Below, piece by piece: positions 27,990 through 37,935 of a DNA stretch of 64,000 nucleotides. Each line of letters starts with the position of its first letter. The stretch's first letter is position 1. The DNA is taken from NCBI RefSeq assembly GCF_000424005.1, contig NZ_AUJB01000011.1, forward strand, positions 124,001 through 188,000, written 5' to 3'. Under the pieces are notes generated by a model, which was not told the origin of the DNA, made no database searches, and saw nothing but the letters and a program-made list of their open reading frames with translations. Made by a program: the position numbers and the translations under genes. This DNA is from Pseudobutyrivibrio ruminis CF1b. Its GTDB lineage: Bacteria > Bacillota > Clostridia > Lachnospirales > Lachnospiraceae.

Positions 27990-28928
27990 ATGAGGTATTT
28001 CCGTAATTTCGTAGTTAGTTCAATAGGTATTTTTCTTATGATTTTCTGCGCTGCTGTTAAATGTAATGCAACTGATTTCGTTATCGTTGATGTGTCACGG
28101 CAGATTTATTCCTATGATTCTTTATGTGAAGATATGGCACTTCTTGCGGCAGGCCATGAGGATATTATTTCATATGAATCTTTAGCCACCACTTTACAGG
28201 GAAGAAATGTGTGGCTGGTTAAATATGGAAATCTTCAGGCTGACAAGAGGATTCTTATAACTGCATCCATTCATGCCAGGGAGTATATGACATCCCAGCT
28301 AGTGATGAGGATGTTAGAAGAGTATGTGTTAAATGTTGATACTCCTCAGGTAGATGGCCATACATACAGGCAGCTATTCAGTGACACATGCCTTTATATT
28401 ATGCCTATGGTAAATCCTGATGGTGTCACAATGTGTCAGTTCCAACCAGGAATGCACCAGCTAAAAGCAAATGCAAATGGAGTTGATTTAAATAGGAATT
28501 TCCCAGTAGGCTTTGGTCATGGTGGCACAGCGTCTTCACCAGGTTTGTTTTACTACCCAGGCACAGCACCATTAACAGAAGCAGAGACCCAAGCTCTTTC
28601 TGGGCTGATTAACACTTATCCATTTATGGCCTGTATTAACTATCATTCCATGGGAAATGTAAATTACTATGGGGCCAGCACTAATTCGGCGGAAAATGCT
28701 AAACGTTGTAAAGCGCTTGCCAACGTAGTGAGTTCGGTAAATGGTTACAGAACAAAATATTGCGGAGATGCCTGCGGCAGCTTTGCAGATTATTTCTATG
28801 AAGTGACAGACTGTCCAAGTGTAACCATAGAGATAGGAACAGCAAATCCTGTGCCAATATCCCAATTTACAGGTATTTATAATAAAAATGTTGGTTTATG
28901 GAAGGTTTTGGCGGCTCTGTTTTTGTAA
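27990..28928 (+). CDS. Secreted M14-family zinc carboxypeptidase
   Basis: 312 residues with a signal peptide (FVVSSIGIFLMIFCAAVKCN) and an M14 domain. Zinc ligands are His and Glu in ASIHAREYMTSQL and the later His of INYHSMGNV; the substrate-binding NANGVDLNRNFPVGFG and the catalytic Glu of SVTIEIGT are present. This combination fits gamma-D-glutamyl-meso-diaminopimelate or peptide carboxypeptidases acting outside the membrane. No attached LysM or SH3 domain. AGGA sits very close to the ATG, so initiation may be weak. Confidence 0.92.
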   Translation: MRYFRNFVVSSIGIFLMIFCAAVKCNATDFVIVDVSRQIYSYDSLCEDMALLAAGHEDIISYESLATTLQGRNVWLVKYGNLQADKRILITASIHAREYMTSQLVMRMLEEYVLNVDTPQVDGHTYRQLFSDTCLYIMPMVNPDGVTMCQFQPGMHQLKANANGVDLNRNFPVGFGHGGTASSPGLFYYPGTAPLTEAETQALSGLINTYPFMACINYHSMGNVNYYGASTNSAENAKRCKALANVVSSVNGYRTKYCGDACGSFADYFYEVTDCPSVTIEIGTANPVPISQFTGIYNKNVGLWKVLAALFL

Positions 28929-29002
28929 ATAGACATATTTCACAGAACATACACACGAACATTGAGCTATCTGACAATTCTGTTTTAAAGTGGAAAATAA
29001 TC

Positions 29003-29030
29003 TTGCAATTTATAAAACCGAGGCTATAAT
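29003..29030 (+). promoter_or_regulatory. Strong vegetative promoter for the repeat RNA
   Basis: TTGCAA - 16 bases - TATAAT, close to the sigma-A consensus. No open reading frame follows for more than 600 bases; instead the repeat-containing RNA and its terminator follow. Confidence 0.75.
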
Positions 29031-29036
29031 AATAAT

Positions 29037-29396
29037 TACAAAAGGTGTTATAGAAAAAAAGAGGAAAGGGAGGTACAGTCCACCAAAACATTAAGTAGTT
29101 ATTGTAATGGTTTTATTAAAATCTAGTGATTGGAGGTATGGTCCACCAGAGGATTAATTTTAAAACCAAAGTAATTTATTAAAATCTAGGGAATGGAGGT
29201 ATAGTCCGCCAGAGATTTAAATCAGTTACACACGCGACAATTTCATGATGAGGTCCATCAATGATTAAAAGTTTTCAAATGGACAGCAACAATGAAAAAT
29301 GAAACAGAATGAGAGGTATAGTCCATTGGGATCGAATTTCAGGGGCGGCACCAGTTAGGAATCAGAGGATTTCGAATTGGTGTCGCCCGTTTTTTG
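29037..29396 (+). ncRNA. Candidate ~360-nt repeat-containing RNA
   Basis: The unit starts about seven bases after TATAAT and ends with the terminator GGGCGGCACCA / TGGTGTCGCCC plus GTTTTTT. In between lie tandem units with a GGAGGTATAGTCCACC core, each able to fold into a small GGAGG:CCACC hairpin. No coding frame of useful length exists on this strand. Promoter, terminator and repeat structure are seen directly. Function is unknown; a sponge for an RNA-binding protein or a ribosome-site mimic are possibilities. Confidence 0.65.
29068..29329 (+). repeat. Tandem ~60-bp repeat array, GGAGGTA..GTCCACC core
   Basis: Cores at 29068-29084 (GGGAGGTACAGTCCACC), 29132-29147 (GGAGGTATGGTCCACC), 29195-29210 (GGAGGTATAGTCCGCC), 29248-29259 (degenerate, GATGAGGTCCATC) and 29311-29327 (GAGAGGTATAGTCCATT). 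Units 2 and 3 are also nearly identical upstream (TTATTAAAATCTAG). Period 55-64 bases. Confidence 0.8.
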
Positions 29397-29404
29397 TGTC
29401 AATT

Positions 29405-29600
29405 TTGTTACTATTCACAGTGAAAAATATTTAATGATTAATTCTTGTCAAGCTTGCTTGTAAAAGAATAATCATTGAATATTTTTTGACTTGAATAAGT
29501 GACTTTCCATACATGAATAATGTTAGGTGCTTTAGCACCGAGAAAGAAGTCTGAAAGACTTCCATTATGAATGTTGGAAAGTTACTGTGAATAGTAACAA
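29405..29600. mobile_element. MITE-like element with 17-bp terminal inverted repeats
   Basis: TTGTTACTATTCACAGT at the left end and ACTGTGAATAGTAACAA at the right end are perfect inverted repeats. The 196-bp interior contains further nested palindromes: AATGATTAATTCTT / AAGAATAATCATT, and GACTTTCCA...TGGAAAGTT. It encodes no protein. An isolated copy of the end sequence lies at 30653-30670. The non-autonomous element interpretation is inferred from structure. Confidence 0.65.
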
Positions 29601-29646
29601 ATCCACTTGACTTAGTGGTTGAAATTCCTTAGAATACTAAATGTTC

Positions 29647-29730
29647 GCAGAAGTGGCGGAATTGGCAGACGCGCAGGCTTCAGGTGCCTGTGGTAGCAAT
29701 ATCGTGTGGGTTCAAGTCCCATCTTCTGCA
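29647..29730 (+). tRNA. tRNA-Leu (anticodon CAG)
   Basis: Acceptor stem GCAGAAG / CTTCTGC, D-arm with AATTGGCAGACG, anticodon arm CAGGC-TTCAGGT-GCCTG with CAG at 34-36, a long class II variable arm, and T-arm GTGGGTTCAAGTCCCAT. CCA is not encoded. A strong terminator follows. Confidence 0.95.
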
Positions 29731-29769: not shown

Positions 29770-29799
29770 ATGCAGAAGATTAGGCTTAATTCAATTTCG

Positions 29800-29904
29800 C
29801 GATATTGCTCGCAATATCGAGTGGGGTGCGGTCGTCCAGTGGACGACCCTTGCGAAGCAAGGAGCACCGACCGAGCCGGGAGGCGAGACCAAGTCCCATC
29901 TTTT
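29800..29904. repeat. Broken tRNA-Leu 3' copy split by a GC-rich cloverleaf palindrome
   Basis: GCAATATCGAGTGGG and CAAGTCCCATCTT repeat the variable arm and T-arm end of the adjacent tRNA-Leu, but are separated by about 65 bases. That insert folds as a closing stem GGTGC / GCACC around two hairpins, GGTCGTCC-AGT-GGACGACC and CTTGC-GAA-GCAAG. A further hairpin, CGATATTG-CTCG-CAATATCG, sits on the left flank. The insert is much richer in G+C than its surroundings. Confidence 0.65.
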
Positions 29905-29926
29905 CAAATATGGAAGAAGTTAAAAA

Positions 29927-30114: not shown

Positions 30115-30131
30115 GAAAGGAAGTGGTATTT

Positions 30132-30365
30132 ATGGCATTTTCACTTAGATTAACTGATGAAGAAAAAGCTCTTGCTGATAGCTATGCTAAGCTACATTCT
30201 ATGTCATTGGCAGAAGCATTTAAAAGAGCATTGTTTGAAAAAATAGAAGATGAGTATGATATCGCTATAGCTGATGAAGCACATAAAGAATGGGTTGCCA
30301 GTGGTTGCAAAACTACACCTGTTGAGGAATTCTGGAAGGAGCTTGATTTAGAGGATGAAGTATAG
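30132..30365 (+). CDS. RelB/DUF6290-like antitoxin
   Basis: 77 residues from an ATG preceded by GAAAGGAAG. The N-terminal ribbon-helix-helix pattern reads AFSLRLTDEEKALADSYAKL and SMSLAEAFKRALFEKIEDEY; the C-terminus is acidic (VEEFWKELDLEDEV), as needed to cover the toxin active site. It overlaps the RelE-like gene by 11 bases. The protein should repress its own promoter and neutralise the toxin. Confidence 0.85.
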   Translation: MAFSLRLTDEEKALADSYAKLHSMSLAEAFKRALFEKIEDEYDIAIADEAHKEWVASGCKTTPVEEFWKELDLEDEV

Positions 30366-30621
30366 TGTTGAATTATCCGAAGGCTTCAAGAAGGAATTCA
30401 AAAGACTTGATAAATACACCCAAAGGATGATACGTTCTTGGATTAATAATCATCTAGTTGATTGCGAGGATCCAAGGGTTTCAGGTAAACCTCTTAAAGG
30501 AAATTTTGCAGGACAATGGAGATATAGAATAGGTGATTACAGATTAATATGTGAAATACATGATAATCAGTTTGTAATTCTTGCATTGAATATTGGTCAT
30601 AGAAGTAAAATATATGAATAA
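30355..30621 (+). CDS. RelE/ParE-family toxin
   Basis: 88 residues of the type II toxin fold: MKYSVELSEGFKKEFKRLDK, SGKPLKGNFAGQWRYRIGDY and RLICEIHDNQFVILALNIGH RSKIYE at the end. The conserved W-R-Y-R-I-G-D-Y-R-L strand is the RelE-type core. RelE members cut mRNA on the ribosome, ParE members poison gyrase; the C-terminal G-H-R-x-x-Y favours RelE. It overlaps and is coupled to the antitoxin. A terminator follows. Confidence 0.87.
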   Translation: MKYSVELSEGFKKEFKRLDKYTQRMIRSWINNHLVDCEDPRVSGKPLKGNFAGQWRYRIGDYRLICEIHDNQFVILALNIGHRSKIYE

Positions 30622-37599: not shown

Positions 37600-37935
37600 G
37601 GTCCGATGAGTAGTCGCTGCCTGGTGGTAATAGCCAGGGAGAGGAAAGTCCGGGCTTCACAGGGCAAGGATGCCGGCTAACGGCCGGTGGAGGTAACTCC
37701 AAGGATAGTGCAACAGAAATATACCGCCTGATTTTTCAGGTAAGGGTGGAAAGGCGGTGTAAGAGACCACCGTATCGCTGGTAACAGCGGTAGCCATGTA
37801 AACCCCATCCGAAGCAAGTTCTAAAATGCGCGTACGCGGCCCGCCAGCGCAAGGTTGAACGCTTGAGGCTGTTGGCAACAGCAGTCCTAGATAGATGACT
37901 ACTTTAAAAGACATAACCCGGCTCACAGTCGGGCC
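37600..37935 (+). ncRNA. rnpB: RNase P RNA (type A)
   Basis: P1 is formed by GGTCCGA / TCGGGCC. The conserved core is present: GAGGAAAGTCCGGGC (P4 left strand region), CAACAGAAA, AAGGTTGAACGCTTGAGGCTG and ACATAACCCGGCT. The type A peripheral layout and size (~336 nt) fit. The T-run after the P1 strand acts as terminator. It is the catalytic subunit that matures tRNA 5' ends. Confidence 0.97.

Follow-up and report, generated by a model that had tools for sequence, protein, structure and literature searches.

The window, a 64,000-nt stretch of the genome of Pseudobutyrivibrio ruminis CF1b, carries at 29003-29396 a stand-alone RNA gene in which repeated GGAGGTAYRGWCCACC units follow a promoter and lead to a last unit of a different kind and a terminator. 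This RNA very probably represents a real RNA family without an entry in Rfam. Its last unit contains a start-stop frame of a few codons, and its upstream units carry a similar ribosome-binding-like sequence with another codon at the start position. As the best explanation, held tentatively and a little short of an even chance, we propose that the RNA may capture 30S subunits or initiating ribosomes at the start-less sites and at the start-stop minigene, acting in trans as a decoy or store.

Layout and conservation in the genus

A sequence-only reading of this DNA had proposed a promoter TTGCAA-N16-TATAAT, a core recurring about every 60 bases in three good and two degenerate copies, and a terminator with a T-run. 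The features are listed below; R3 is one of three covariance models (R1, the 3' domain; R2, the unit; R3, built from 50 units).

28956..28977, + strand: conserved element upstream of the promoter, CGAACATTGAGCTATCTGACAA, a possible regulator site (putative function)
29003..29030, + strand: promoter TTGCAA-N16-TATAAT (TTGCAA 29003-29008, 16 nt, TATAAT 29025-29030)
29037..29396, + strand: predicted RNA as a whole, its 5' end placed from the -10 box
29069..29084, + strand: unit 1 core GGAGGTACAGTCCACC, ribosome-binding-like, without a start codon at +13; R3 match 29053-29106
29132..29147, + strand: unit 2 core GGAGGTATGGTCCACC; R3 match 29116-29169
29195..29210, + strand: unit 3 core GGAGGTATAGTCCGCC; R3 match 29179-29232
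29230..29240, + strand: conserved spacer ACACGCGACAA, read from the alignment; absent from L025
29252..29285, + strand: further hairpin GGTCCAT ... ATGGACA, distinct from the repeat units; clade-specific
29313..29325, + strand: 3' unit, SD-like GAGG plus conserved spacer, TATAGTCCA
29326..29358, + strand: mini reading frame TTG...TAG (LGSNFRGGTS), starting 9 nt after GAGG; translation predicted
29343..29395, + strand: terminator hairpin and T-run (stem 29343-29388, T-run 29390-29395)

The proposed promoter and terminator were confirmed, as were the three good copies, GGAGGTAYRGTCCRCC cores that begin at 29069, 29132 and 29195, 63 nt apart. One of the supposedly degenerate copies, at 29313-29325, is a distinct and highly conserved 3' unit (the last unit being GAGAGGTATAGTCCATTGG), whereas the other, at about 29252-29285, is a different hairpin, present in 12 long-form genus sequences and in L044. 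The terminator, missing from the list of a simple terminator scan, has a stem that covaries among the genus homologues, and four of the 22 pairs predicted for the 3' domain are changed on both sides. None of 100 shuffled sequences folds as well as the RNA (z -4.65), and GGTAYRGWCC occurs four times in the window, all in the RNA and on the + strand (0.24 expected; four copies in 0/100 shuffles).

The gene is flanked by an M14 peptidase gene (27990-28928) and a tRNA-Leu gene (29647-29730). Directly downstream of the RNA, at 29404-29608, a large hairpin contains an 18-nt inverted repeat without a mismatch (29404-29421 / 29584-29601). Clostridiales-1 RNA (RF01699) matches below threshold at 29418-29608 (26.1 bits; threshold 48), adjoining the repeat RNA without overlapping it. 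After the tRNA-Leu gene, at about 29790-29910, fragments of that gene are repeated (for example AAGTCCCATCTT), which suggests a decayed duplication. A DUF6290 protein gene and the ParE-type toxin gene that follows it, at 30123-30621, probably form a type II toxin-antitoxin pair, with no relation to the RNA. The core GAGGTAYAGTCC has a look-alike in the RNase P stretch GAGGAAAGTCC (37641-37651), a likeness that is probably due to chance.

By nucleotide search, the RNA is present in 26 of 29 genus genomes, namely its own and 25 of 28 other members; G010 and G027 gave no match, and G020 gave a chance-level match alone. The spacers vary among the 26 aligned homologues, which keep the -10 box, the units, the 3' unit and the terminator. 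TATAAT is found in 26/26, TTGCAA in all except L018, and the number of CCACC-type units before the 3' unit ranges from one to three. The element at 28956-28977 includes TCTGACAA, eight consecutive invariant columns in this alignment; its remaining matches in its own genome all have 3 mismatches, which is chance level. A regulator may act at this element, because the genus carries TTGCAA rather than the consensus -35 box. A tRNA-Leu(CAG) gene lies near the RNA at 25 of 25 scanned genus loci, up to about 3.4 kb away and in varying orientation. Across L001-L026, the RNA stays by this tRNA gene, yet orientation and distance differ among species, as if the spot had been repeatedly rearranged. Of the 30 loci L021-L050, 11 show the dGTPase or primase genes known from the window; L047 in this set may be a chance match to the search pattern.

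The motif GAGGTAYRGWCCA has 48 copies in 18 genus genomes, 48/48 inside the RNA (in 16 of the 18 genomes), and these 18 genomes held no motif site outside it; beyond the genus set, GGUAYRGWCC had one match, in G038 of another family. This exclusive placement favors the main rival to ribosome capture, that the RNA is a multivalent platform for an RNA-binding protein that reads GGUAYRGWCC, single-stranded or in a small hairpin, with the minigene secondary and serving, for example, stability. We consider such a platform rather unlikely, on evidence that is weighed below with the structure of the units. An RNA-only scaffold or base-pairing sRNA would agree with the repetition of the units and with the self-complementary GUAC found in most cross-genus cores, but other loops occur, and the core with up to two mismatches has one further site in its own genome, within the level of a reversed-pattern control; we regard this alternative as improbable.

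Occurrence and gene context in Lachnospiraceae

In separate searches of the same 397 Lachnospiraceae genomes, R1 matched 46 and R2 matched 60 (E<=0.1), and the two coincided in several genomes, such as G164, G314, G279, G199, G241 and G068. At E<=0.05, R3 matched 158/397 genomes in 135 of 334 genera, with 131 matches among the 320 genomes of good quality; chance alone may contribute up to about 20 of 397 genomes at this threshold, and 144/397 pass E<=0.001. Because R3 was trained on the window and on 47 loci from 46 genomes, those 47 genomes match by construction, and 111 carriers were found anew. An order-wide search matched six of 146 genomes, all six Lachnospiraceae, and no genome from other families of the order (about 131 of the 146, an estimate from a genome order that appears to follow kinship).

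The homologues that the sequence-only reading anticipated in related genomes were thus found, and its view that no described RNA family has this form stood at curated thresholds: at the gathering threshold of Rfam 15, no family matched the window RNA or 40 loci of other genomes. When 28929-29646 was searched against Rfam with relaxed settings, nothing convincing fell on the RNA, and no description of such an RNA was found in searches of open-access literature. Two other candidates were rejected. The match to 6S RNA (RF00013) in the same genome sits elsewhere, at C1:345447-345627, and an RNA of mobile elements had no phage or plasmid match, the 16-mer core occurring in 27 viral contigs and the unit flanks in 0/27.

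Loci beyond the genus share a common plan of promoter, AAATCTAAGAAAGGAGGTACGGACCACC-like units, spacer, 3' unit and terminator. G164 (L066) has two copies of the RNA in tandem, and G096 (L094) has a long array with GGCGGU in several units and ATG plus an early stop in several. L067 and L071 are members of the family whose diverged 5' units lose the AYRG spacer and keep AAAGGAGG or AAAGGGG together with CCACC. Some units have GGCGGU or GGAAGGU, still preceded in most by AAAGG or AAGG. Between the units of 21 RNAs, enriched words were few, each in at most 11/21; TACAAAAG occurs in 6/21 (0.7 expected). In L076, L079, L090 and L093, GTACAAAAGA-like words are repeated in some RNA spacers.

Promoters, which are part of no covariance model, are enriched. 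A perfect 12/12 consensus promoter lies within 200 nt before the first unit at 30 of 51 loci outside the genus compared to 0/1020 shuffles, and a promoter of at least 11/12 lies there at 42/51 compared to 7/1020 shuffles, the fairer control, and to 0/139 other stretches, which are largely coding. Judged from these promoters, we infer that strong transcription of the RNA is quite probable. A strict terminator lies within 600 nt downstream at 20/49 loci compared to 6/46 controls; for the promoter and terminator counts, and for the count of +22 stops given below, the pattern that selected the units ended in CACC, which fixes those letters by selection.

No neighboring gene is consistent. The downstream genes are unrelated at 10/10 loci and encode enzymes, transporters, regulators, a peptidoglycan-binding protein and an iron-sulphur protein. 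Upstream, one gene cluster, which we take to be aspartokinase, recurs at six loci from five genomes, and a cluster including a glycoside hydrolase 3 protein was seen at four loci from three genomes. These contexts bear on two alternatives. In an attenuator, a ribosome at the minigene stop would open the terminator and let transcription run into the next gene. The position of the stop, at or near the foot of the terminator hairpin and inside its stem in the genus, would suit such a device, but the unrelated downstream genes and a next gene that is reversed at three of the ten loci (L068, L069, L081) make it hard to credit. As for type III toxin-antitoxin systems, their antitoxin RNAs, as described in PMC5086642, comprise tandem repeats behind one promoter with a terminator after the repeats, a layout that the present RNA resembles. 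It differs in being a repeat RNA without a toxin gene: a tRNA-Leu gene follows the terminator in the window, and the next genes at 10/10 loci elsewhere matched no Pfam or PADLOC toxin model, apart from one weak BrxP match in the iron-sulphur protein. A type III antitoxin is therefore largely refuted.

The sequence-only reading had likened the RNA to a CsrB-type sponge and pointed to csrA as a gene to look for. csrA is indeed present in this genome and in 24 of 25 genus genomes searched, and some units contain AUGGAGG or AGGGAGG, as a CsrA sponge would lead one to expect. Across the family, however, the comparison fails, since 82/158 carriers have no csrA, which excludes a CsrA sponge family-wide; csrA was found in 76/158 carriers and 134/239 non-carriers (odds ratio 0.73, p 0.12). 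GGA is present in most CCACC units and missing from the genus 3' unit cores and others. The genus 3' units read GAGAGG or GTGAGG, with no GGA before the core, and only 20/48 3' type units have a G before GAGG. Even for Pseudobutyrivibrio, we therefore consider a CsrA sponge very unlikely.

The start-stop frame and the start-less units

Among 34 distinct cores before a terminator-like hairpin, selected without any condition at +13, 33 have ATG or TTG at +13 from the first G of GAGG, which is 9 nt after GAGG. The codons at this position are TTG in 18, ATG in 15 and CGA in one core that is apparently a chance find; R1, which found many of the 3' units and contains CCATTGG, may favor TTG in this tally. 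The frame has five codons in 22/33 cases, six in five and seven to ten in six, so that 27/33 have at most six codons, compared to 36% in shuffles. A stop falls within six codons in 48/55 sequences in the minigene frame compared to 25/55 and 22/55 in the other two frames. The usual peptide is M/L-D-x-x-x-stop (MDSIV, LDSEV, MDNMF and similar). Codon 2 is nearly fixed except at its third base (entropies of 0.28, 0.28 and 1.55 bits by position). The start varies between A and T alone, and in the five-codon set the stop is either TAA or TAG; L067 has TGA. Single-base codon differences were synonymous or not in a ratio of 120:157 in this frame compared to 55:154 and 15:119 in the other frames, counted over sequence pairs that are non-independent. 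In the genus, TTG is found in 26/26 homologues, followed by an in-frame stop after ten codons in 25 and after five in one, and changes in codons 4-5 show no regard for the amino acid. Conservation thus lies in the start, the stop and their distance from GAGG, and far less in the peptide. From this pattern, a conserved start-stop frame in the 3' unit is predicted with high confidence, and the frame is probably translated.

The earlier statement that the RNA has no ORF holds at ordinary lengths but not for the conserved ten-codon TTG frame at 29326-29358. The longest + strand frames of the 26 homologues have 12-35 amino acids, near or below shuffled means in most, and an ordinary protein product was rejected because there is no long frame. 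A conserved protein frame, which that reading had named as evidence against a repeat RNA, is found in minimal form, as 5-10 codons in the 3' unit, and does not explain the whole RNA. If a pentapeptide or other short peptide were itself the product, for example a signal, the upstream units might tune its translation. Conservation of start, stop and length and the codon-like variation would be expected of such a peptide, but its residues past the Asp of codon 2 vary widely and the genus peptide differs and has ten residues, and we judge a peptide product to be unlikely.

The CCACC-type units share SD and spacer with the 3' unit, but the start position is occupied by CCA or CCG and, in rare cases, by a different codon; with the start codon so replaced, a 30S subunit could bind there but not start. 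A stop in the minigene register is found at +22 in 41/51 start-less units, and +4 to +21 show codon-like variation (1056:883 compared to 754:1651 and 123:2166 in the other frames). No route for translation of these units is apparent, because 41/51 are without an in-frame ATG before the upstream stop. In L094 and L103, several upstream units have ATG and a stop after 2 to 7 codons.

Predicted SD pairing was strongest for 51 5' units (median -13.9 kcal/mol), weaker at the start sites of 41 ORFs in the window (-8.8) and weakest in shuffled units (-5.5). That SD-like GGAGG might engage ribosomes, as had been suggested early on, has gained support from the start-stop frame, but GAGGU is predicted to be mostly paired (mean unpaired probability 0.31). 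The proposed folding of GGAGG against CCACC is possible as pairing; covariation gives GAGGU/CCACC no support. Only 11/51 5' cores and 1/48 3' cores fold better than 95% of shuffles. Single loci had hinted at an outer A/U stem enclosing the unit, which was rejected as unsupported over 50 sequences, with 61.5% of stem cells paired. For the whole unit structure, the shuffles as good among 500 numbered 113 by paired cells, 76 by covariation score, 412 by two-side-changed pairs and 25 by two-side-changed cells.

We also scored two-part pairing, in which a second contact with the 16S end lies outside the SD. With a 16S end taken from relatives, ordinary units were matched by 3266/10200 and 3583/9800 shuffles and, when the 16S part was shuffled, by 141/500 and 121/500. 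L067 and L071 pair better with the 16S end, 45/1000 and 22/1000 shuffles being as good. With an assumed 16S end and the 16S part shuffled, 7/200 were as good for 3' type units and 43/200 for 5' units.

These results divide between ribosome capture and the protein platform. In favor of a protein, the core is nearly invariant over 50 units, and conservation of the 9-nt spacer TAYRGWCCA goes far beyond what an SD requires; this spacer conservation and the two-part 16S failure of ordinary units count against the ribosome. Against a protein, no partner is known, L067 and L071 drop spacer letters and keep the SD and CCACC, and the hairpin that it might read is without covariation support, with few cores beating their shuffles. 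The start-stop frame and the membership of L067 and L071 shifted weight from the platform to the ribosome.

Proposed ribosome capture and known systems

The 3' unit is probably a translation start, made of GAGG, the conserved 9-nt spacer UAYRGWCCA, AUG or UUG, usually five codons and a stop; it would load a ribosome and, with the stop only a few codons on, release it at once. The start-less units could hold a 30S subunit without starting, and if the RNA is strongly transcribed, some of the cell's ribosomes could be bound in this way. Among the 397 Lachnospiraceae genomes sampled, about 40% have the RNA, with near-perfect promoters, start-less sites and a five-codon frame; if this explanation is true, it would point to RNA-based ribosome control in one of the main families of the gut and rumen. 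We know of no such control of ribosomes by RNA in other bacteria.

A gut metatranscriptome study reports many uncharacterized reads and, in its excerpted text, nothing specific to the repeat RNA (PMC3050895). In Clostridium phytofermentans ISDg, also a member of Lachnospiraceae, a presumed non-coding intergenic transcript without a supported peptide lies downstream of cphy2658, according to a start-site study (PMC5171806). On that description, this transcript is like the repeat RNA in family, intergenic position and the lack of a supported peptide. We suggest, at somewhat less than even odds, a Lachnospiraceae-specific class of ribosome-directed RNAs, with tandem start-less sites, a pentapeptide minigene against the terminator and near-perfect promoters, that would capture or meter ribosomes and to which the dominant transcript of C. 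phytofermentans may belong.

CsrB, CsrC, RsmY and RsmZ are stand-alone protein-sponge RNAs with several repeated short sites. The present RNA is likewise a stand-alone RNA with repeated short sites, but the site is another one, GGA is not fixed, there is no link to csrA across the family and a start-stop frame is present. The bar minigenes of phage lambda are start-stop minigenes that trap ribosomes or shed peptidyl-tRNA, and they share with the 3' unit an SD, a start codon, very few codons and a stop. What sets the frame described here apart from the bar minigenes is its place in a dedicated stand-alone RNA that has start-less copies ahead of the frame, a terminator immediately behind it and a wide distribution in one bacterial family.
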